A stretch of DNA of 64,000 nt, from assembly GCA_949751835.1 (NCBI GenBank), contig CATKHK010000050.1:282200-346199 (forward strand), written 5' to 3'. This document shows, piece after piece, positions 4,400-23,820 of the stretch (within the stretch, counting starts at the first letter, position 1; each line of letters begins with the position of its first letter). The position numbers were made by a program, and so were the translations under genes. The notes below the pieces were generated by a model, which saw only the letters and a list, made by a program, of their open reading frames with translations, did not search any database and was not told where the DNA came from. The stretch comes from Blepharisma japonicum. Lineage: Eukaryota > Ciliophora > Heterotrichea > Heterotrichida > Blepharismidae.

Positions 4400-7300
4400 A
4401 TGAATACAAACGCCAAGGAGAATGATCTAAACTCCCATCACCTTATTTCAAGGAAAAGCACCTCTAGCAGTATCGAGGAATTATGGCAATTTTTCTTGAA
4501 CTGTATGATAGAAATATTTGAGACTCAATTTAGAACAGGAACTCCTTACAGAAATCAATTATTTATTGAAGTCGTTAAAAGCATGATAATATTTATTCAG
4601 ATATTATCATTATTTTGGTACCCCAGTATCTCTGTAAGTAATTGGAGTTCTTATTCGACATTTTGGAATTTTTTGTGGTACTTTAATTATGATAGCTTAT
4701 GTATGGAATTAGATATTTTTTCTTATTGCTATATAGGTGAAATTTTTATCATTTGTTATTCAATTTTTATGATAATCCTATACAGCATTTTAAAATTCTC
4801 TGGGTATAAGCTGCCCCAAATATTTCTTTACATAGCTATAGAATTGATATCATTTTTATCTTCAATATCATTCATTCCTTTTTTAACAATTCTACTAGTA
4901 ATTTTTAAATACTCAGCATTTGAATACTCAGAAGCTCAAGAATATTACGATCATGATTTAAGTAAATTAAATTATGGCTGATTAGGGTCAATTTTTTGCC
5001 CAATACTTATAGTATTGCTGATTATACTGGCTTTCATGGATGAGCTTGTAAGAGCTGATATAAGGCACTCCTCATGTCAAAAAAACTTAAGAGCACGATC
5101 TGATTCGACATGGGACTTGCTGTGGATAACTTTTTGTGTTATTCAATGTTTTTTGTATGTTTTTCTGGATAAGTCTGCAGTGCTATTTTATTTAACAATA
5201 CTGTTAATACTAAGCTTATATGTCTTTTGGTGTGGTTTTAGGTATTTGCATTATTACAATCCTGTAGAAAACTCCATACAAAACAGTAAAATCGGCTCTA
5301 TTTCTGTTACTCTTACTATTTTTATACTTGGCTATACAATTGATAATGCTGCTACAATGACATTATTAAGCTTCATTTTGTTACCTTTAGTAGTCGCTTT
5401 TATATTTTATTGGACCAATAAGAAATACTTGAAACTTCAAAGCTATAAAAAGAATTCATTGAATCAATTTTCATTCGAGCATTCTATGAGGCATTTTCTA
5501 ACAAATAAAAACTGCGATAATATTGAAGAAATCATTCGGCTATTCTCAAGTTGCTTTAATCATGATAAATTTAAAAATACATCTCTTTTTGTCATATGAG
5601 AAGTAAACTTTATTCAAAATATCGCTAAAGATGAAAGACTAGCTAGAGTAAGGCTTGTAAGGATAAATAGAGCAGAATTTAGTATTGAGGGAACCCTTCA
5701 AAAATACAGAATTTTAGCAAAATTGAACAGCACGAAATCCAAAAAACTACCAGAAGTTGATTATTTGGAGTATTTAACTGGGCTTGATGAAGCGAAAAGA
5801 TGTGATGAAGAAATTTGCCAAACTCTATTAGATTTATGGACTGAGATTGTATGTAAATCCCCAGAAATTATAAAACTCAGAAATTTGACTGAAAGAGTTG
5901 CTGATCTTTCTTTTAAAATCAAAGAATTATATAGAGATCTTGCAGATAAAAACAAATTTTCAGAAGTTTTTGAATTATATGGATTTTTTTTAATAAATAT
6001 CCTTGGGGAGTCCCAAGAAGGAAACTTAATACTAAAAAGAAAGCATGGATTTAAAGAATTTAGCTCAGCATCAGGAAGCCAAAAAACGCTTGGATCTTAT
6101 AGTGAAACTCAAGGTGTTATGCTGATCTCTACAGATCCTGAATCATTTGGCTCTATTTCATATATTAACGAAAAGGCTGAAATGATTTTGAAAGTTTCAC
6201 AAATCGAAGTGGCAAGTTCTGATTTCAATATATTTGTTCCAAGGCCTTTTAACATCAACCACAACCAAAAATTGAAGCGATTTTATGAGCACTGTACTGA
6301 AACTGTGGTAAATAAACTTTCTTCGTTATATTTATTAGACCATAACGGATTTATTGTAGAATGCTATATACTAGTAAGGATCACAGCATTTAATAACAAA
6401 GCTTATTTTATGGTCTCTTTCTCCCCTGTTATTACTACCAGACAAGCTATTCTTATTTCACAAGATGGACTAATTTACGCTCATTCCATACAATTGCCAT
6501 CTTCAATTGGAATGGAAAGACTGGATTTATCAAATATGAATATTTCAGAACTCCCACTTGGGATTTCTATAAAAAATTTAATTCCATTCGAGCCTTATAT
6601 AGCCAAATTCTATCACAAAGAAGTCGTAATTGTGTATATTACCAAAAATCAGCGAGGGGTAATAATTCATATAATTTTGGTGATAATTGACCATTATGAA
6701 AAAGAAAAATGAAAAAATAGACAATCCGATGAGCAAATTGAATATTACACAAAGGTTTCTCCAATCCGGGAAATAGCTAGTGGAGTATATGAAAGAGAAA
6801 GCTTAGAAATGGATAAAAATACAAATCTTGACTCTCTGATGCCTTCTATCACCGAAAAAACCGTCTTAATAAATACTACTTATGGTGCAACAAGCGAAAT
6901 CCGTGAAGAAGACGATATAGAAAGAACGCCGATCCTAGAAAATAGTAATTCACAAGCCTCCTCAATAGACAGTAAGTTTTAAACAGAAATTGCTTTCAAG
7001 TATGTTGGGGAAACAAGTAATGCTATTATCAGATTTCAATGGGTATTGCTACTAGCTGTATTATTTATGCAGATTATTGCGATGATTGGAACAAATATTG
7101 GGATTTTGATATATATCATAGATGATGTTACTCATACAATTTCTTTAGAAACCTTTAATCATCTCGGACAAATCATGTTTCAAATTGGATCAGTCGCTGA
7201 CCTTGCTAGGTCAATTGATCTTGAAGTCAGTGAGGGAAAATATGACTTGAATAGAGACTTAGGATATCTAAGCCAAGGAATTGACACTTTATCTAAGTTA

Positions 7301-8671
7301 CAAAGTACAATTCTAAGTGATAAATCAATGTGGAGCTACTGCAAAAGTTCAGAAATTGTGACTGAAAAAATGATTCCTTTGTGGGATTTTGGTGGGGGAG
7401 ATCCTAAGCTAGAAAAATTTAACCTTTATGATACTGTTACTTTGTTTATTCAATGGGTATGCCTTACATAGGAACAAAATTTATTAAAAGAAGCTTTAAA
7501 GAAAAATAATTCTTATAAAGACAGTATCAACTGACTAATGATTAATAGTCTGAGTTTTGCGTTTTCCATTATAGAAAATGCTTTGGCAGATTTGGTCAGC
7601 TGTGAGCATAATAGGATTTCAGATACTGGAACTATTATAAATAGTCTTTTAATGCTTGGTGTAATTATTTTGGCTATTTGTTTAGGAGTCCTTGTATATT
7701 TTATAGTTTCGCTTAGAATTGTATATGAGAAATTTTGGAGCTTTATTAAGAAATCAGTAGCTATTAATTATGTATATCTTAAGCAAGCTGCCTGGGATAG
7801 ACTGATATCAGTTCATGGTGTCGAATTGAATCAAGAAAGCAATGGCTTACAGAAACCTGTTGATCTGCACAGTTTTCATATAAAAACTACCCTCACTTGG
7901 AAATTCAGTGCAAGGTTAATATTTTTTGGCGCAATCTCCTTATCATTTTATTTGCTTATCATGCTTTTCCTTTTTAAAAATTGTGAAGATTTAATGAAAA
8001 ATCGGCCTAAGCTACTAGAAACTATTAATTTGCAACGATCTTTGCTGTCAAGAATAGGGTTATATGCAAGAGATATCAATAATGAAGTCAACAAAAAATT
8101 TTATGCAAATTCTTATAGCTTTGCTAACTCCACAAAAGAATTTACGAATTTGATTTCTCTTTATGATTATCAATGCGAATTAATGCGCTCAAGTGGCATT
8201 GCAAACCTTCTTTCTAGCAAACTAAAAGTTGCTCTTTATGAGTCATTTAATTCTTCAGATGATCTTCTCAAATATGGGGCACTTGCTGCAGCAAAGTCAA
8301 TTGTTTTTGATGCTTATAACATTGGTGGTCCTGGAGGGATTCGTTCAGATGAAGAAATTTCTGATTTTGTATCACATTTTACCATTTTTCAGGATGCTTT
8401 AGCTGGGATATTTGATATGGCTGATGCAAGCTCCAAAGATGTAATTTCGTTGCAGCTGGCTTTAATTACCTACACTACTGCTCTTTTTTCAGTTGGCCAA
8501 GCCTTGCTATATTTATTTTATTATTTGCCATTTATAAAGACACAAACCAAATTTTTAAGGAAAACAAAAATTTTGCCAAAAATGATTCCAGTTGCAGCTG
8601 GAGAGAAAAAGGGTGAAGGATTAGCATTTTCTTCTCAAACAAATGCTTTTAGTGTAGGAGATATAAAATAA
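4400..8671 (+). CDS. TmcB/TmcC-like PAS multi-pass membrane protein, copy 2 (intact)
   Basis: Complete paralog of about 1408 residues; start ATG 4400, stop TAA 8669-8671. Order seen: short polar N-terminus; 7-8 hydrophobic helices within about residues 50-340; FEHSMRHFL (about 360) and FVIWEVNF; TmcB/TmcC-type TPR region (about 390-560) ending in GNLILKRKH; PAS-like region (about 575-700) with FGSISYINEKAEMILKVS; linker; then a C-terminal block with helices near 880-905, 1068-1098, 1158-1180 and 1342-1365 and two Cys-containing loops, probably outside the cell. TGA at 4979, 5597, 6710 and 7532 reads as Trp. Three 15-nt introns: 6972-6986, 7058-7072 and 7457-7471; the second has no stop. The TmcB domain is named after Dictyostelium tiny macrocysts proteins. 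The biochemical role is unknown. A signal-sensing membrane protein is inferred from PAS plus membrane blocks. Confidence 0.85.
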
Positions 8672-10253: not shown

Positions 10254-13200
10254 ATGAAATTCTTATCAAAAAATGAGGCTGAGAATTTCAGCCAGCGTAT
10301 TTTTAGCCAAAAAACTGGGAATTGGTATCAGATAGGATGAAACTCATTAGTGAGCTACTTAGTTGAAGGTTTTAAGCCTCAATATAGCTGCAAAATGCCA
10401 TATAAAATTCAACTTTTAATAGAGCTAATCAGCAATATCACAGTCGTTTTTCAAATTGTATCTCTTTTCTGATATCCAGTGAAAACACCCAAAAACTGGA
10501 ATGCTCATTCGCTACTTTGAAATGATTTACGTGTATTCAACTACGATTATATATGCAAAGTAAATGGCATTTATAGCTTTTGCTATTATGGACAAATTTT
10601 TGTTATTTTTAGTTCAATCTTTGCCATAATAAGCGCGTGAGCAATTAAAAATACATTAAAAAAGGCTTCGAAAATTTTAATTTACTATGCAAAGATAGTT
10701 ATAGGTATTTTTACTAGGGTTTCATTAATCCCAAGCTTAAAGCTTCTACTTTTGATTTTTAAATATTCAGCATTTGATTTTTCAGAAGTTCAAGAATATG
10801 CAGGCATGAGCCCTGATTATTATGATTATGGATTAATAGGTTCAATATTTTCTATTATTGGGTTCGGATTGCTGCTTATAATAAATTTGGTTTATGAATT
10901 AATCACTGCAGATTTAAGACACTTTAATGCAAAACGAAATATAAGAGCAAGATCTCATTCTTCAATAAATTTATGATGAATTTTTTTTTGTGTAATCGAA
11001 GTGATTTTTTACTTATATCTCGACCATGATAAAATAATTGGTTTTATGATTTTTACATTGATTTCGTCTGCTATTCTATTAGTAAAATTTTTGTATTTTT
11101 TGCCATATTATAATTCAATAGAAAATTCAATCTGAACTAGTAAAATAGTTTCAGTAGCTGCAGGCTCTCTCGCATTTCTGCTTGGCTACCTATATGATGA
11201 TGCTTATATTATTATTTTTATTTTTGTTTTTTTTACTCCCTTTGCTAATATTTTACTTATTATTTATATAATCAAAAACTATTCCAAACTTCAGCTTACA
11301 AAAAATCCTTACTCAAGCCAATATAATTATGAGAAATCTATTAGGCATTTATTGTCTGACAAGCACTGCAAAAATAAAGAAGAAGTTATTGAAATGCTTT
11401 CACATTTTTCTAATAATCAGACCTGCACAATTGATGGACTTTTTGCTATATGGGAATCAAATTTTTATATTGATGTTGCAAAAGATGAAAGATTAGCAAT
11501 GGTAAAACTTGCTCAAATTAATAATATCAAGACTAATTTTGAAGGGTGAATCCAAAAATACAGAATTTCCAAGAAATTTCACCAGAGAGGATTTACAATT
11601 TTAAAAGAAATTGAATACTTACAATATTTAAAAAAGCTTCATTCTGCTAAAAATAAAGACAAAGAGCTTTGCTATAACCTGCTAGATCTTTATGTTGAAA
11701 TTTTATACAAAAATACACGTATTATAAAGCTTCGATATTTAATCTCAAAATTATATTGCCTTGCTAAAGAAACAAAACATTTATATAAATTCCTTGTAGA
11801 AAATTATAAATATCCAGAGTCATTTGAATTTTATGCATATTTTTTAATAAGATTATTAGGACAAACAGATGAAGGAAACATTTTACTAAAAAGAAAACAG
11901 AGTATAAAAGAAGATGTAATTATAGATCAAGGTCAACTAGAGGAATATGGAGAAAGTGTTGGAGTTATTTTTTTATCAACAGAGTGCGATTTATTTGGAA
12001 CAATTGCTTTTATAAATTCAAAAGCCTCAACATTACTTAAAGTGTCATTATTAGATGCTATAGGTAAAAATTTTGATAATTTTATTCCATCACCCTACGC
12101 TTTAAATCATAATGAATATATGAAACAATTTCTAAGATTTGGCACTAAAACAGCAGTTGAAAAACCTTTTACTTTAATTTTACAGGATAATTGTGGATAT
12201 ATTTTTGAGTGCAATATTATGGTTAAGTTGACTGCTTTTAAAGACAAAGCATATTTCTTAATATCTTTTTCCCCTATTTCTTCAAATAGGCAAGTACTTT
12301 TAATATCAGAAGAAGGAGAAATCTACAATCATTCATATCAGCTATCAACTTTACTAGGATACCCAAAAGAAAATATAAAAAGCATGCATTTGCGCAACCT
12401 CGTCAATGGGCTTGAGCTGTCGAATATGGAGCTATACAATCCAACGCTAATTAAGTGCAATAATCGCGATTTAGAATTTATTCATATAACTAAAAAGGTA
12501 AAATCAACTGATATACACTTACTTTTAATCCTTTCAGATAATTATGAAAAAGAATTGTGAAAAAACAAAAAAACGGAAGAGCAGTTGAAATTCAATACAA
12601 AAGATCTATCAACTTGCTCAATGCCTTCAAAAATTAGCAATAAAAGTTTATTTAAAAAAGAAAATGAAACATTTAGCGAAATTAATGAATCCCATAAAGC
12701 ATATTCTAAAATAAAAAATGCATATAAATCAATAGAAGAAAATTTTGAAATCCCAATATCTTTTAATCAAGCAAACAAAAATATTTTGTCTGAGCGTAAT
12801 TTTTATAAAGAAATTGCATATAAAAACAATAAAAGGACAGCGTTTTTACTTCAAAAATTTCAATGAATTTTGTTTTTAACTGTATTTAATATATAGGTTT
12901 TATTATTGATTGCTATAAATATTGGAATTTTAGTCTATATTGTTGATAATGTGGGCAATTCTGATTTATCAACAGTTTTTTCGACTTTAGGCAACATTGA
13001 ATTAAGTATTGGAATACTTTCCATCTTAGGTGAAAATATCAATGATGAAATTTCTCTAGGTAAATTCAATCTTACTCGTGATTTAGGAATTTTATATTGA
13101 ACATATAATCAGCTGAATTTAGCAAAAAGCGAATTAATCGATGATTTTCCAAAATGAAGTAATTGCCCTTGCTCTGATATTGTGACAGAAAATATTGTAC

Positions 13201-14453
13201 CAATATGGGAATTTAATTCAGGAAAAATGCTAAGAAAATATAATCTATATGATACTTTGTCAATGTTTATTGATTATGTATTTGATATTTAGACTCAAAA
13301 ATTAATGAGCGACTCTAAAAGCCGAAAAGGATATGAAGAAGATATTAAATGGCTCATGATAAATGGGTTTAGTTTTTCACTGAGATATGTTCATAAAGCA
13401 TCAAAAGATTTGTTAGAATGTGAAAAAAATACCAAAAGTGATAAAAGCATTGTTATTAATGGTTTATTTATTATTGGAATTTTAATTTGCGCCATTTTTA
13501 TAGCATTACTGATGGGTTTTGCTTATTTTTTAAAAGTCGTTTATGATAAATTTTGGTCAAATTTAAAAAAATCAGTTACTATGAGTTCTGATTTTTTGAA
13601 AGGCACTATTTTTGAAAGGCTTTCGTCAGTCCATAGCCAAGAATCAATTTATTATGATACCTATTATAAAAATTCCAAAAAAATATCGAACTATCATATA
13701 AAAACTACCCTTGCTAAAAGACTATTTTATAGATTAAGCTTGATTATTATTATTTCTCTTTGCTTTTATTTGGTCATGATATTTTATTTGTACAAAAGCT
13801 GTCAAGAATCAATGATAGATAGATCGAGATTATTACAAAATTTCAAATTTAGAAGCATTTTGATATCAAGGCTATCCTTGTATATTAAAGAAATAAATGA
13901 TAATTTATTCTTAAAATATTATCCAGAATCTTATGATTTTGCAAATCCTTATACAGAGTTTTATAAGGTTATTGATGAATATGGCTTGGAATATAAAAAA
14001 TTGCTATCAAGTAAATGAGATTATTTATTATCAAAAGATATCAAAGAAAGTCTTTTTGAGTCTACAAATTATCCTTTGAGCTATATGAAATTTGGGCTTA
14101 TTTCTGCTTCAAATTTGGTTATAGATGATTCATTATTTTTAAGTCAAGTTTACTCAGATAGTCAATATTCGGATTATTATGTAAGCACTATGACATTGCA
14201 AAGTGGCTTATCCAGCAGCTTTAAATTAGCAGATGCAAGCTCAAAAGATTATATTAAAAATCAGCTAAATTCGATGGTATCTCTTACAATCCTTTTTTCA
14301 GCTATTCTTGGGACTTTAAGTTTGTTTTATTATTTACCGTATTTAAGGCAGGAAAAGAAATTTGTTGATAAAGCTTGCTTTTTGCTGGAAATTATTGCTA
14401 GTTCTAAAGAAAATCAAGCAAAACTTCTTTTAAAAAAAAATAATAACTTATAA
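10254..14453 (+). CDS. TmcB/TmcC-like PAS multi-pass membrane protein, copy 3 (intact)
   Basis: Complete paralog of about 1384 residues; start ATG 10254, stop TAA 14451-14453. With UGA as Trp one frame is open throughout. The N-terminal membrane block begins near SLFWYPVKTPKNW. Then come EKSIRHLLSDKHC, the TPR region (IEYLQYLKKLHSAKNKD), GNILLKRKQ, the PAS-like region (GTIAFINSKASTLLKVS, NFIPSPY), a Lys/Glu/Asn-rich linker and the four-helix C-terminal block. Introns of 15 nt: 12796-12810 (stop-free), 12882-12896 and 13278-13292, at the same sites as in the other copies. It uses more TGA for Trp than copies 1 and 2, including a TGATGA pair near 10973. It is more AT-rich and more diverged, closest in feel to copy 4. 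Function is as for copy 2: unknown, inferred sensory. Confidence 0.82.
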
Positions 14454-14477
14454 TTTAAGGAAATTTTAAATAAATAA

Positions 14478-17400
14478 ATGATTACATTACTAAAGGAAGC
14501 ATCATCAAATAGCAGTCGCCAATTTTTAAATAAAAAAGGCTCAAAAGTGCTTGAAAAGACAAAGCAATTTATATTTGACTGTTTGATTAGGATATTTCAG
14601 CCTCAATTTACTCATAGTAAAAATTACCAGACTCAAGTAATTATTGAAATTATTACAAATTTTATAATGTGTCTGCAGGCTGCATCCATATTCTGATACC
14701 CAGGAATGACACTTGATGGCTGAGATAATTATTTTGTTTTCTGAAAATATATATGAATTTTTAATTATGATTGTGTATGTGTTAATTACAATATTTATAT
14801 TTATTGCTTTGCTGGACAAATCTTAGCAATTTTTTATTCCATTTTTACATTTCTATTGTATTTTGCAATAAAGGCATTAAATTGAAAATTCCCAAAAATA
14901 TTTATAGCAATAGCTAAAGAAATAATCAGCTTTTTTGCAACGGTTGGATTAATTCCTTTATTATCATTTTTATTTATCATTTTTAAGTACTCTACGTTTA
15001 AAGTCAGTAGGGTTCAGGAATATTATGAATCTAGCCCTGAATCCTTCGATTATGGGCCTATTGGATCAATAATCTGCATAATCACATTTGGACTTATAAT
15101 TACGATAGCTGCTATTTATGAGCTATTTACTGCTGATCTCAAACATACAAATTCTGATAGAAATTTGAGGGCAAGATCAAATTCAACATTAAGCTTATTA
15201 TGAATTTTATTTTGTGTTATACAAGTGGCACTTTTTATATCTCTTAACGCAAATTTAATTGTGACTTATTTGATTATAATATTGATTATGGCTATATTTT
15301 TATTCATAAAATATATATTTCTTTTACCTTATTACAGCACTTTAGGAAACTCAATTCATGCTGGGAAAATGGCCATCATAGCAACCTATTCTATAGCATT
15401 TATTTTTAGTTACATAAATAACAATGCCCTTGTGCTCACTTTATTGTGTATATTTTTGCCGCCATTTTCAGTAGCTTTAGAGTGAATTGTGGTATCCAAA
15501 AATTATTCCAAGCTTTCAAATACAGAAAATCCTTTATCAAGCCAGTACAGATTCGAGCATTCTATGCGAAATTTTCTTATTAACAAAAATTGCGATAATA
15601 GAGAAGAAGTTATAGAAATAATTTCTCACTACTCAAATAATAAACTTTTCACAAAAAATGGCCTCTTCGTCATATGAGAGGTTAACTTTTTTATCCATGT
15701 TGTTAAAGATGAGAGGATCGGAAGGATAAAACTAACTAAATTCCATTTATACAGGCCAAGTTTAGAAGGGAGTGTGCAAAAACTCAGAATGTCTAAGAAA
15801 TTCGATGAAAAAGAGTTTACACAATTGAATGAAATTGAATATCTGCGCTACTTGACAGATCTTCATAAAGCGAAAAGAAAAGATAGAAAAATCTGTTATG
15901 TAATATTAAATCTTTGGGCTGAAATAGCACGAAAAGCTCCAAAAATTCAAAAACTTAGATTTCTAACAGAAAAATTTTCAGACCTTGCAACACAAACTAA
16001 GCAATTATATAGAATTTTGGCAGAGAAAAACGAATATCCAGAAATCTTTGATTTATATGGAAATTTTTTAATTAATATCCTTGGTGATGTCGATGAAGGA
16101 AATTTAATTCTCAAAAGAAAGTTTAGATTAAAAGAAGATTCAGTCGTTATTGGAGGGCATCATAAGCGGCTAGAAGAATATGGTGAAAAATTTGGGATTA
16201 TTTTATTATCAACGGAGCCCAAAACTATCGGATCAATTTCATTTATAAACGAAAAGGCTGCAATGATGCTAAAAGTTTCTTCTACAGAAATAATTGGAAC
16301 AAGTTTAAATAATTTTATTCCATGGCCCTATTCTATAAATCATAATGAGAAATTAAAGAAGTTTTACAGTGCAGATACCAAAACAACTATAGATAGTATT
16401 CATACATTGATTCTTCAAGACAACTATGGCTATATTTTTGAATGCAATATTTTGATTAAGCTTACAGCGTTCAAGGATAAAGCTTATTTTATGGTTTCTT
16501 TTTCTCCAATTTTTTCTAATAGACAAGTGATTTTGGTGTCAAAAGAAGGAGAAATATATAACCATTCCAGTCATCTCTCTACATTACTAGGATGCTCAAA
16601 GCAAAATATGTCGAAAGAATATGTTTTTGACATTGCGCGTGGACTTGAATGGTTTGATATGAAATTATATGAACCATTCGCAATAAAATGCAATGGTATT
16701 GAATTGTTATTTGTCCATATAATTAGGGCAATAAAATCATCAGAAATTCATTTAGTTTTAGTGGTTAGCAATACAAATGAGATAGAAAAATGAAGGCACA
16801 AAGCATCTGATGAGCAATTAGAATTTTATAATAACAAAACTATGAGTTTCATAGAAATTCCTAAACTAAGCAGCGAAAAAATAGTCTTTGAGGAAAAAAA
16901 CTCTAAAATGAACTCTGGGCTTTATAGCACAATTGATGATCTTATTAAAATAAATTCCCAAATGGAAAGTAATGCTGAAATCCCAGAAAAAAATAGAAGG
17001 CTTTCAGTGTCAATAAATGAAAGCACTGTAAAGCCAACTTGTGATGGTATTTTATATATAGAAACTGCATATAAATCCATTAATTCCCCATTGATTTAGC
17101 TATCAATGCATTTTTTATACTAAGGGAAAAGCTTTTTATTGAAAAATGTTTTATATTAAAATCATTAATAAAGCATTTTTTTAGTATTTTAAATATTTTA
17201 AAGTTTAAATGTTTGAAAGGTTAAACCTAATTTAATTTATGTTTAGGATGTAAACTGTCTAAGCAAACAGAAATGTCAATAATAAGATTTCACTGAATTT
17301 TATTTTTAACTGTAATCTTAATATAGGCTGCTTCAATGATAGGGACGAATATTGGAATTTTAGTTTATATTGTTGAAAGCATTGAAAAGACAAGCTCATC

Positions 17401-18868
17401 TACAATTTTTACAAATTTGGGAGAAATTGAATATTTTTTAGGGACTTTTCCTTTATTGGTTCAAATGATTAATACAGAATTTTCTACAAATAACTCTCAT
17501 TTGTCTAATGATTTAGCAGATTTATATGACATAACTATGCAGCTTAATCTTCTACAAGATAAACTAATGAGTGAATTATCTCAATGAAGCTATTGTGAAA
17601 GTTCTAAAATAGTTTATGAACCTATCATACCTATATGAGAATTTAACACAGATTCTGAACTATTAAAATACAATTTATATGACGTTTTATCTCAGTTCAT
17701 TTATCATGTAGCTTTTATTTAGTCTCAAAAACTGCAAGCCAATATAATCAGTAGAAATGAATACAAAGAGGATGCTAAATGGTTGATGCGAAATGGAATT
17801 AGCTTTGTTTCTCATTTTATTGATAAAACATATAAAAGTCTTTCAGAATGTGAAAAAAATAGAATAAGTGATATCAGCTTTGTAGTTAACACTTTATTAG
17901 CAATTGGGATTATTATTTCTGCATTATGCTTAGCCACCCTTATTTATTTCACATTTTCTCTTAAATTTATATATGAAGAATTTTGACTTAATTTGAAAAA
18001 ATCTGCTATTTCTCATCATACTATGATAAAAAGTATTTCTATTGACCGACTTTTAACAATCCATGGCCATGATTTAACACACGATGGTACTGATTATTTA
18101 AAAGCTCCAAAACCAAGTAATTATTCTATTAAAACGACCCTTGCTAAAGATTTTGTTTTAAGATTAAGCTTACTTATAATATTTTCAGCAAGTTTTTATT
18201 TGCTTATGATTTTTTATTTTTATAGAAATTGCGAAATTTCAATGATAAATCGCCCAAAATTCTTACAAGATTTTAATAAATTTAGAATTTTGCTTTTACA
18301 AAATGAATTTTATATAAAAGAGCACAATGATCAGGGAATACGAAAATATTACCCAGAATCATACTCTATTTGCAATCCTTTGAAAGAATTATCTAACATT
18401 CTAATCGCCTATAAAAATACTCATAATAGCATGCAGTCTCCAGAGCTATCCAATTTAATATCAAAAGATCTAAAAATAGAATTTTATGAGAAAACAACTT
18501 TTCCTAATAATATTATGAGATATGGGCTCATGAATGCATATGAAATGATACTTTTAGATGCATTTTATATTAAAGAAGATTATTCTGAGGATAAATATTT
18601 AGATCATTTGATTAATGTTATTGAATTAGAAAAAATATTATTTTCTAGTGTTAATCTTGTAGATTCTAGTGCTAAAGAAGTTATTGAAGGGCAGCTGAGC
18701 TTAATGATATATCTTACTATTGCATTTTCAGCTATTTTGGGGAGTTTAAATTTATTTTATTATTTGCCATATGTAAGGAGTCAATTAAATTTCATTCGAA
18801 AGGCTTGCTTATTACCTAAAACTCTTATGAATTGAGAAGAAAATAGCAAAGGGGAATTTATTTACTAA
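14478..18868 (+). CDS. TmcB/TmcC-like PAS multi-pass membrane protein, copy 4 (interrupted by candidate IES)
   Basis: Starts at ATG 14478, only 24 nt after the stop of copy 3, and ends at TAA 18866-18868. The N-terminal membrane block, FEHSMRNFL, TPR region, GNLILKRKF, PAS-like region (GSISFINEKAAMMLKVS) and C-terminal four-helix block are all present. The frame is broken once: after the first intron (17047-17061) it hits TAG at 17097 and resumes in another frame near 17260. Taking out 179 bp between two TA dinucleotides restores the frame and the family spacing, giving about 1388 residues. The other 15-nt introns are 17312-17326 and 17708-17722. As the sequence stands here, the protein would end in the linker and lose its C-terminal membrane block. 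Either this copy is non-functional, or the insert is excised in some macronuclear DNA copies. Confidence 0.78.
17081..17259. mobile_element. Candidate retained internal eliminated sequence (IES)
   Basis: A 179-bp AT-rich segment starting with TA (17081) and followed by TA (17260-17261) separates two halves of the copy 4 linker. Its length is not a multiple of three and it contains in-frame stops (TAG 17097). There is no GT dinucleotide between the end of the first intron (17061) and the stop, so a GT-AG intron cannot remove it. Precise TA-to-TA removal gives 19 residues from the intron junction to the conserved Trp, the same as in all four other copies, with the shared Thr at position 10. An alternative equal-length choice, shifted 9 bp upstream (TA 17072 to TA 17251), also restores the frame. 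TA-bounded IESs are known from ciliate germline genomes. That this is one is inference. Confidence 0.6.
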
Positions 18869-19629: not shown

Positions 19630-22600
19630 ATGATTGATAATTTAGTGGAAGAATTTGAGGGCATAAACTACAATTTTGCAAGAAAAGAAACACCAAAAGA
19701 CTGAGAAAGACTAAAAGAATGTTTATGTGATTTTTTATCATGTTTCTTTAAACCTCAATTCAACAAAAAAATACAATATAAAAGCCAGTTGTTTATAGAA
19801 ACCATCAAACATGTCATATTATGCACACAAGTAGTATCAATTCTCTGATACCCAAGTATGGAGATCAGAGGCTGAAGCTCATGCTCAATTATATGGAAAT
19901 TTATCTGATTTGTAAATTATGACAGTTTATTTACGCATTTAAGAATTTATCGTATTGGCTTCATAATACAGATTTCAATTATGGGCTATTTATTCATAAC
20001 TTGATTGGTATTTTTCATACTGAAATTTTTCAATCGTAGAATTTCACAGGGATTTGTTTACATGTCAAAAATTATTGTAAGCTTTTTAGGTACAATATCA
20101 TTTATTCCTTCTATTACGATTTTATTGGTAACATTTAAATACTCAACATTTGATTTTAGTGAAGTTCAAGAATATTATGAAAATGATATATCAAGCTTTG
20201 ATTGTAGTATTTATGGAACTATATTGTCTCCTATATTTTTAATATTCTTAATTTTAGTAGCTTTTTTGAATGAATTTTTTACAGCTGATCTTAAACATTC
20301 AAATTCAACAAAAAATATTAGAGCAAGATCGCATTCTACGCTGGATTTATTATGGCTTGCATTTTGCATAATTCAGGTAAATATTTTTATTTTTTTGGAT
20401 CAAAAACAGATGGCTTGATATTGAACTGCTTTATTGACCATTTCGATATATCTGCTTATACAGTTTTGAATAGACTTGCCCTATTACAGCTATATTATGA
20501 ACTCAATACATATAAGTAAATTTAGCGTAATAGCTGTATGCTCAATAGCATTTTTATGTGGATACTGGAATGACGATGCAAGAACTTTAACTGTTTTATG
20601 CATTTTTTTCCCTCCTTCAGTTATATTTCTTTCATTTGCTTTGACATTCAAAAGATATTCGAGATTGAAAACTTATTCAAACTCTCCAAAAAATCAATTT
20701 CATTTTGAAAGATGCCTTCGGCATTATTTAATAGATAAATATTGTGGAGATATAGAAGAAATAATAAAAATATTTTCAGATTGCTTTAATAAGAAAAAAA
20801 TAGATATGGATGGACTATTTGTTATATGAGAAGCAAATTTTTGTATTAATATAGCTAAAAATGAAAGGTTAGGAAGACTAAAATTGACCAAAATTGATTT
20901 AATAAGGAAAAATATAGAAGCAGATCATCAAAGATTTAGAATTTTAAATAAATTGGGGATGAAAAGTTTATCTAAATTATCGGAAATTAAATATATGGAG
21001 TATTTGACAAAGCTTGATGAAGCAAAAAAATATGACAAAAAAATCTGTTACGAGCTATTTAAATTTTGGACAGAAATTTCTTCTAGAAAACCAAAAATTA
21101 GGAAGTTAAAGCCATTGATGGAAAAAATTTCAAATCTTTCTATAAGGGTTAAATTATTATATAAGTCAATTTTGACTAACAATAATTACTCAGAAGCTTG
21201 GGAATTATATGGGCTGTTTCTAAAAAATATACTTGGAGAACATGAGAAAGGGAATTTAATGCTAAAAAGACAGCATGAAAATAAAGAAATGAGCTCAACT
21301 CGAATTCCCAGTTCAAAAATTGAGTATAATGAAAATTTATGTGTTATATTAATATCTTTGGATGCAGACTCATTTGGCAGTATATCATACATAAATAGAA
21401 AAGCTTCGCAAGTCTTGAAAGTTTCTCTTGATGAAGCAATAGGGAGAGATATCAATGACTTTATTCCAAAACCATACTCCTTATTTCACAGTGAAAAAAT
21501 GAAGCAATTTTATAAAAATGGCACAAAAACTAGACTGGAAAGGTTAAATTTTTTAGTGCTACAAGATGGCTATGGGCATATTTTTGAATGTAATTTAATA
21601 ATTGAACTTACTGCATTTAACAATAAGGCATATTTTATGGTTAGATTTATGGAAATCTTGCGCAAAAGACAAGTAATTTTATTATCTAAAGAAGGAGAAA
21701 TCTATAATCATTCAGAAAATTTAGGACCGATTATTGGATATCAGCAAAAAGACTTTAAAAATATAAACATTTCAGATGTCTTTCCAGGAGTCAAGCTAAA
21801 TAAACTGTATTTATTTTTGCCAAAAATAATAATGTCAAATGAAAATAAGCTTGCTTTGGTTCACCTTCAAATAGCTATAAATCTATTCACAATCCATTTA
21901 ATTTTTGTGATAAGTGATAGTTTTGACATCGAAAAATGGCAAAATGAAGAAGCTCCTGAACAAATAGAATTTTTCGGACAAGCTGAATGCCAGATTAATG
22001 AAAACTATGAAGAAATTAGTCACAAAAAGCCTAAAAATACTTTGATATCAATGAATTCTGCCGATCAAATTTCAAAAGCATTTTTAAATGAGGAGCACCT
22101 ATGAGAAACAGCTGCAGATCACAAGGGGAATCAAAATCAAGAAAAGAGCATATCAGCAGACCGTATTTTCTATTTAGAGTTATCCGCTCGATATATAAGA
22201 AGAACCGAATATTCGATCAGAAAATTTTGATGGATTTTACTTTATGCAGTATTTTTCATATAGATTTTAGCAATGATAGGGACAAATATAGGCATTTTGA
22301 TATATATTATCAGCAATGTTAATCATACAACTTCTATGGAAGTGTTTTCAAACCTTGGAAACATTGTTTATCTCATCGGAACATCACCAATTTTAATTAG
22401 AGTCATTGAGCAAGGAGTGTTTAACTTGAATCAAGAAATGCAATATATAAAAGACATTAGAGCATCATTAATTGAGCTTCAAAATTCTCTTAAAAGTGAT
22501 TATTCTGAATGGAGCTATTGCCCTAGCTCTGATATAATAGTTAAAAACATTGTTCCCGTATGGGAGTTTAGTCAAGAGCCTAAACTAAAGTACTATAACT

Positions 22601-23820
22601 TTTACGATTTCGTATCATTGTACATTGATTATGTATTTTTTATGTAGTTGGGAAAATTAATGCAAGGTTTCTCTACAAATATCCCAAACAAAGATGATAT
22701 AAAATGGCTAGAAATAAATTCGATAAGCTATCCTTTCCAGTATTCAAATAAAGCTCTAGAAGATCTTGTGGAGTGCGAAAAGAATAGAATTTATGATAAA
22801 AGCCAAGTCATAATTACTTTGATAACTGTTGGAACAATAATCTGTGGTGCATGCTTGGCATTGCTTATGTATTTCAGCTTTATACTGAAATTTATATATG
22901 ACAAAGCATGAACATATTTAAGAAAATCTGCTATTTTTAACCATATTTTGCTAAAACAAGCTTGCTTAGACAGGCTTTTATCAGTTCATGGTGTTGAAAT
23001 GATGAATGAGCACATATCAAATGAAATAATCCCAAAAAATATGAACTTTAATATGAAAACAACTCTCACAAAAAATTTCTTCATAAGACTCTGCATTTTT
23101 GTTATAATTTCACTATGTTTCTATTTGCTTACTATTTTTTATTCTTATGATATCTGTGAAAATTACATGATAAATAGGCCAAAACTACTACAACTCTTTA
23201 ATAAACAAAGAATATTACTTGGGAGACTTTTGTATTATGCTAAAGAAATAGATGATCAGTCAAGCTTAGATGATTTTCTAAATTCCTATTCTTTTCAAGA
23301 TCCAAGAACTGAATTTGATAAATTAATTGAAGAATATGAAAATTTAGACTCCAGAAAATTGCTTTGAAATAGAATGAGTGAATTTCAATCTGATGAAATT
23401 AAAAGCTATCTTTATGAAGGAACAGATTATTCCGGTGACTATTTGAAGTATGGATTAATCCCTGCAGCGCATTCTTTAATTTTTGATTCTGTTTATATAA
23501 GAGAGACATACAATGAACCAGAGTTCCTTAATCTATTTGCAGAATCCATATATTTGCAATCAGCTATGACAGAGTTTTTACCATTATCGGAAAAACGAAC
23601 AAAAGATGCAATTTTTTATCAGCTAAATATAATTGTATATACAACTGTTATTTTTTCAATAGCTTTGGGAGTTTTGTATCTCTGCTACTATTTGCCTTAT
23701 TTAAAAAGAGAAATTTCTTTTCTCAAAAAGTCAAGAATTTTGCCCAAAATCATTTCAAACTTGACTTCTCATAAGAGTAAGATAGATTATCAGCAAGCTA
23801 TTAATAATTCAGAATTTTAA
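19630..23820 (+). CDS. TmcB/TmcC-like PAS multi-pass membrane protein, copy 5 (intact)
   Basis: Last array member, about 1381 residues; ATG 19630, TAA 23818-23820. It has the same order of parts: SILWYPSMEIRGW in the N-terminal membrane block, FERCLRHYLIDKYC, FVIWEANF, TPR region (IKYMEYLTKLDEAKKYD), GNLMLKRQH, PAS-like region (GSISYINRKASQVLKVS, DFIPKPY), linker and four-helix C-terminal block. In-frame TGA codons (several in the first 300 nt, plus 22102, 22909 and 23365) are Trp. Introns of 15 nt: 22163-22177, 22249-22263 and 22633-22647. The linker is shorter than in copies 1 and 2 and the copy is well diverged, so it is an old member of the array. The role is unknown beyond the inferred membrane sensor. 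Confidence 0.82.

Follow-up and report, generated by a model that had tools for sequence, protein, structure and literature searches.

A TA-bounded 179-bp insert in an exon of a TmcB/PAS-type array gene of Blepharisma japonicum, a possible unexcised IES

The TmcB/PAS-type array and its fourth copy

The window analyzed here, a stretch of 64,000 nucleotides of a Blepharisma japonicum contig (CATKHK010000050.1, positions 282,200 to 346,199), carries a tandem array of genes for TmcB/PAS-type membrane proteins: copy 1, which is cut at its 5' end (to 2906), copy 2 (4400-8671), copy 3 (10254-14453, locus L012), copy 4 (14478-18868) and copy 5 (19630-23820). The stop of copy 3 and the first ATG of copy 4 are separated by a gap of only 24 bp (14454-14477). 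Searches of the assembly (45.2 Mb in 224 contigs) returned 124 matches at E <= 0.01 and at least 150 scored matches in each of three further searches, which puts the family at more than 100 members. This TmcB-like, PAS-containing family is very large and partly tandem, with many apparent membrane spans, and is found on contigs C50, C58, C56, C40, C38 and C57. Contig C165 has two copies (L038 and L041) closely related to L037 on C50, with upstream terminal branches of about 0.1; either a duplication has recently reached a second contig, or C165 carries a piece of the C50 array that was left unmerged. Partial matches at C50:244675-245010 (minus strand) and at C58:114655-114954 and 115249-115428 (minus strand), the first two of the three with an in-frame TAA, are perhaps relics of further copies.

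Two other members of the family are visibly broken. Locus L035 (C50:257862-263500) carries a frameshift of 1 bp near its position 2600-2700, within the PAS region; here the hits of the PAS probe are split between two frames (C50:260260-260466 and C50:260460-260660). Locus L055 (C118:84950-87700, minus strand) is interrupted by a 1.1-kb insertion, about 0.77-1.89 kb into the reverse strand, which is flanked by a 15-bp duplication (GACTCTTTTGCTGAA) and comprises an open segment with many IEPEIEP repeats, one stretch of which we take to be reminiscent of a UBA domain, two small hairpins and a TAGA tail. Relatives of this insertion, with 69-88% identity, are found on C123 (three places), C46 and C89, and its tail shows 81% identity with C25 and C161; to judge from these sequences, it resembles an element that was retroposed or mobilised by a LINE and now sits in a somatic gene. 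Since insertions left in somatic genes thus occur in this family, any insert in copy 4 must be judged against them.

Copy 4 lies on the forward strand. Exon 1 (14478-17046) is an open frame, with TGA read as tryptophan, that encodes the N-terminal membrane part and the TmcB TPR-like and PAS-like regions. It is followed by intron 1 (17047-17061, 15 nt, GTATTTTATATATAG), with a profile score of 15.2 against a median of 14.4 for the 44 called introns of this length, and by the start of exon 2 (17062-17080), which encodes the linker residues ETAYKSI, shares its first codon with 17046 and its last with 17260, and is identical to copy 3 in 13 of the 14 nucleotides after the intron. Then comes the insert of 179 bp, placed at 17081-17259 or 17072-17250 and bounded by TA dinucleotides at 17081/17260 or 17072/17251, respectively. 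The remainder of exon 2 (17260-17311), with the linker from K8 onwards and the Trp, aligns in register with the paralogs. Intron 2 (17312-17326, 15 nt, GTAATCTTAATATAG, score 15.0), exon 3 of the gene model (17327-17707), intron 3 (17708-17722, 15 nt, GTAGCTTTTATTTAG, score 14.4) and exon 4 (17723-18868, open to the stop, with zero internal stops) complete the gene; the coordinates of introns 1 and 2 given here correct the original prediction. According to Pfam, copy 4 has a TPR_TmcB domain above the cut-off (E 2.6e-11) and PAS_9 below it (E 6.3e-4), while in copy 3 PAS_9 is above the cut-off and the TmcB TPR below it.

As assembled, and with intron 1 spliced, the frame of copy 4 ends after 868 codons at the TAG at 17097-17099, and the homologous frame is back on by 17260, as had been predicted. 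The truncated product would be devoid of the second membrane/sensor part. Removal of the 179 bp between either pair of TA dinucleotides, together with the three 15-nt introns, restores the frame, in agreement with the prediction, and gives 1388 residues with a single terminal stop; the other 22 complete gene models encode 1367-1414 residues.

In this assembly TGA is found where paralogs have TGG, frames are ended by TAA or TAG, and CCCTAACA telomere repeats are present at or near contig ends. Translation of TGA as tryptophan, introns of 15-16 nt and CCCTAACA telomeres are published traits of the Blepharisma macronuclear genome, which in B. stoltei ATCC 30299 amounts to 41 Mb (PMC9942806).

A discrete 179-bp insertion and its ends

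Without the insert, 19 residues separate intron 1 from the Trp, with Thr at position 10, which bears out the original prediction. The same spacing, with a 15/16-nt intron at the same place, is found in 23 of the 29 other paralog loci (21 directly, L027 and L031 once the aligned Trp is shifted by five codons); the remaining six (L021, L022, L023, L024, L032 and L034) have no such intron. Among the 21 loci, position 10 of the linker is Thr in 14 and position 19 is Trp in 16, the others having Leu, Lys or Tyr. Intron 1 of copy 3 ends in AAG, and read-through is also possible there.

In 97 of 99 paralog pairs examined, the matches of a PAS probe and those of the membrane domain lie 421-550 bp apart. 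In copy 4 the distance is 660 bp, i.e. 481 + 179; the only other outlier, at 1628 bp, is L055 with its different kind of insertion. For the adjacent downstream interval, in which intron 3 lies, the value is 148-178 bp in all 96 pairs found among the 99 examined. These surveys covered 99 of the 124 matches in the first search and 99 and 97 of at least 150 in two of the others, mostly the better-scoring ones; three matches of the first search have no partner in the survey, and one of them, C20:364418, does pair in the fuller set (C20:363830-364228). Judged by the 99 pairs, the size excess of copy 4 is far from chance. The linker spacing and the narrow distance ranges taken together firmly support a precise insertion of 179 bp into copy 4, with the target left intact.

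The two TA pairs, 17072/17251 and 17081/17260, are each exactly 179 bp apart, and removal of the insert at either pair leaves one copy of the TA. The direct repeats at the ends are TAAA (17072/17251) and TAA (17081/17260), and none longer than 4 bp was found at the 179-bp spacing. Elements of the hAT, Mutator and LINE types generate target duplications of 8-9 bp or about 15 bp, with a range of several to about 15 bp for LINE and retroposed sequences; the lack of any direct repeat above 4 bp means that no such duplication is present here, and a LINE or retroposed insert was therefore rejected. In copy 3, which is insert-free, the corresponding sites read TATAAA and AATAAA; both TA targets thus exist in the empty site, and the next nearest relative in the family tree, L019/L044, has the second target only.

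Taken alone, the TA bounding is weak evidence. For random pairs of 14-bp windows in the copy 4 gene, the frequency of one or more TA pairs in register is 15% and that of two or more 0.9%; with 36-bp windows the former value is 33%, and of 340 other spacings taken from this stretch, 100 also give at least one TA pair. The ends at the 17072 pair read TAAATCC and, inverted, TACATCC (TANATCC, four of five positions after the TA), a similarity expected by chance at about 0.034 for one pair, where two pairs were examined; the 17081 pair has no similarity adjoining the TA. Within the window, the left-end pattern has four matches, itself included, against 3.7 expected.

The GC content of the insert is 0.201, compared to 0.26-0.31 in the coding parts, and is akin to that of intergenic DNA (0.19-0.28 in the three longer spacers measured). 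A search of the assembly with the insert (E <= 10, simple repeats and very common words skipped) returned a single match, the insert itself, and neither a source of the 179 bp nor an insert-free form of the copy 4 locus was found there. Against the 176 kb of the window plus 20 family loci nothing stood out beyond shuffled controls, 40 of 60 Markov shuffles being equal or better. A single match in the assembly and no wider similarity are as expected for germline-limited DNA. Folded as DNA, the region 17072-17261 has a z-score of -1.8, with 7 of 200 shuffles folding as well, and forms no end-to-end stem; the internal repeats of the insert are AT-rich and imperfect. The short non-coding BogoMITE/MITIES elements of B. 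stoltei, as described in PMC9942856, resemble the insert in having TA-containing (TAA) direct repeats, here the TAA at 17081/17260, but the insert is devoid of their C-rich inverted repeat of about 30 bp, and a BogoMITE was rejected on this ground. The core of this repeat has no match in the assembly at up to one mismatch, which by itself is not diagnostic of the nucleus.

Unexcised IES or ordinary insertion

The best-supported reading, to which we give about even odds, is that the insert is TA-bounded DNA of the IES class, left unexcised in the assembled somatic copy of a gene, within exon 2 of copy 4. In its favour, removal of the 179 bp restores the frame, the length and the 19-residue linker exactly, and two TA pairs at the 179-bp spacing fall within the zone to which homology limits the insertion. 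Under this reading, the insert would belong to a germline-limited class of IESs or MITEs, would have originated either by insertion of a TA-duplicating element or as an IES from the outset, and its excision at the copy 4 site would fail or be partial during macronuclear development; molecules from which it had been removed, if any, would encode the full 1388-residue protein. Of the original prediction of a retained TA-flanked IES, the precise insertion and its TA ends stand, while the identity as an IES is plausible and goes no further, given how often a TA pair arises by chance, the marginal similarity of the ends and the low GC content. An IES is defined by its presence in germline DNA and its absence from most somatic DNA, and development-specific small RNAs of 24 nt map to it. 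Filing the insert as an IES is not warranted, as it is known here from one assembled form.

The closest comparison is with the IESs of B. stoltei (Seah et al. 2023, PMC9942856), of which 39,799 have been reported, three quarters of them TA-bound and about 70% intragenic, with a mean GC content of 33.3% and a median length of 255 bp; above 115 bp the lengths are non-periodic, with isolated peaks at 153, 174, 228 and 389 bp, and terminal inverted repeats are common, though not universal. The copy 4 insert is like the TA-bound ones in its TA ends, its exonic location, its non-coding sequence, its length in the non-periodic range and the restoration of the frame that precise removal would bring. 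It differs from them in being present in assembled somatic sequence, in its GC content of 20%, which is far below 33.3% and speaks against an IES, in lying off the reported length peaks and in that no member of a repeat family was seen. The published retention of IESs in macronuclear DNA is at most 0.02 (PMC9942856), hence an assembled retained IES would be unusual. At the B. stoltei density of about one per kb, some 60 germline IESs would be expected in the two surveyed intervals (together about 660 bp per paralog, for 99 paralogs); with one IES-like insert seen, this estimate, which assumes that density, indicates that the assembly is somatic and the case rare.

Relations of two further kinds can be drawn. 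In the somatic assembly, the insertion in L055 is a second one that breaks a gene of the same family, but it differs from the copy 4 insert in its length of 1.1 kb, its 15-bp target duplication and its related copies elsewhere. In Paramecium, retained or excision-defective IESs with changed TA ends have been found in alleles of surface-antigen genes, and both forms, as well as the causal end mutation, have been shown by experiment. There, as may be the case in copy 4, the frame of a somatic gene is lost to an IES that stayed in place; copy 4 differs in that one form is seen and both ends are still TA.

The main rival to the IES reading, possible if somewhat doubtful, is an ordinary insertion from an unknown source, e.g. 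filler DNA at a repaired break, which is not cut out at any stage and has recently turned copy 4 into a pseudogene. In a large family whose members are partly redundant, broken copies are tolerated, as the frameshifted L035 and the interrupted L055 exemplify, and the low GC content, similar to that of intergenic DNA, fits such an origin. On the other hand, no source for the 179 bp is found in the assembly, the target is undeleted and there is a TA at each end. The fate of the gene downstream of the insert bears on both readings. In a fixed tree of 23 sequences, from which L035 with its frameshift and copy 1 with its cut 5' end were left out, the terminal branch of copy 4 is 1.62 times as long for the downstream as for the upstream part, the second highest ratio of the 23 and thus higher than in 21 of the 22 other copies; over 40 bootstraps this ratio ranks between first and fifth and exceeds the median of the others by a factor of 1.5-2.3. 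Within its 12-member clade, copy 4 keeps 62 of the 68 downstream sites common to all others, the third lowest number of the twelve. These values speak for some relaxation of the downstream part after the insertion, as far as can be told from the sequences, and fast evolution there fits a copy losing its function better than one cleanly restored in each generation. Nevertheless, of 73 downstream sites on which at least 80% of the other 22 members agree, copy 4 retains 68, no stop has arisen in 1575 sites downstream of the insert, there is no frameshift, and the introns score normally, which counts for the IES reading and against a plain insertion. Either the insertion is recent (younger than about 4% neutral divergence, a 95% bound that applies without rescue), or partial rescue of the gene continues.

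A narrower version of the IES reading, in which an exonic IES is variably excised in the soma, so that copies of this receptor-like gene would switch between truncated and full-length forms and a young IES would be in the process of being gained or lost within a conserved exon, appears to us improbable. It is consistent with copy 3, where the empty site persists, and with the lack of such an insert in the other members examined.

Splicing, gene fission and the meaning of the insert

Removal of the insert at the level of RNA is unlikely, although it has more to recommend it than had been assumed. The original prediction correctly stated that no GT occurs between intron 1 and the stop (none is present in 17062-17099), but the conclusion drawn from it, that no GT-AG intron can explain the insert, was too strong, because it presumed that intron 1 must end at 17061 and missed the reuse of its donor. 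An intron of 200 nt from the donor at 17047 to the AG at 17246 (TAG, 17244-17246) restores the frame, and so does, by the same arithmetic of coordinates, a pair of introns, one of 53 nt (17047-17099) and one of 63 nt (17184-17246), which would leave a new exon of 84 nt and a linker longer by 26 residues. The donors at 17047 and 17184 both score 6.8, against a median of 6.5 for called introns, and the acceptor at 17099 scores 5.3.

The remaining evidence points the other way. Published Blepharisma introns are predominantly of 15 and 16 bp (PMC9942806). In the window and 20 further loci our calls comprise 48 introns, 44 with a length of 15 nt and 4 with 16 nt, the only two lengths permitted by our intron finder; introns of 15/16 nt alone nevertheless suffice to close 22 of the 23 complete family genes, the exception being L035 with its 1-bp frameshift. 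Among the paralogs, the narrow distances in 97 of 99 and 96 of 96 pairs leave no place for long introns in the intervals of introns 1 and 3. An A at -6 is present in 43 of the 44 15-nt introns and is replaced by G at the acceptor 17246, which has a score of 3.1, a value that only one of the 44 called introns equals or undercuts and that 13% of the 147 AGs in exon 1 reach. The 200-nt splice would also produce a linker of 17 residues, from which the conserved x-A-Y/F-K stretch is dropped. The possibility that the insert ends as an intron of the usual kind (15-16 nt, GTA...A at -6 or -7...AG) was rejected, as the AG at 17246 has an A at neither position, and no GT-AG intron of 15 or 16 nt was found between 17062 and 17311.

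It is quite improbable that the gene has undergone fission, with the insert serving as an intergenic spacer between one gene that ends at the TAG at 17097 and another that starts at the in-frame ATG at 17273 (MSIIRFHW...), just downstream of the insert. Local spacers are AT-rich and sometimes very short, such as the 24 bp between copies 3 and 4, and the 20% GC of the insert is alike, but the spacing is unmatched among the 99 paralog pairs, save the one with the 1.1-kb insertion, and the position of intron 2 is retained. An assembly artefact, which nothing favours beyond the rarity of such an insert, is hardly credible in view of the unique sequence, the precise junctions and the single form of the locus in the assembly.

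The significance of the TA-bounded insert, which we prefer to regard as a candidate IES, depends on the forms in which it exists. If it is always present, copy 4 is simply a pseudogene, and its case cautions against relying on nothing but TA ends, which constitute weak evidence in AT-rich genomes. If both forms are present, it would provide a paralog-controlled example of the gain or loss of an IES within a coding exon of an early-branching ciliate, a group in which the steps that lead from a mobile element to excised DNA have so far been mostly inferred.
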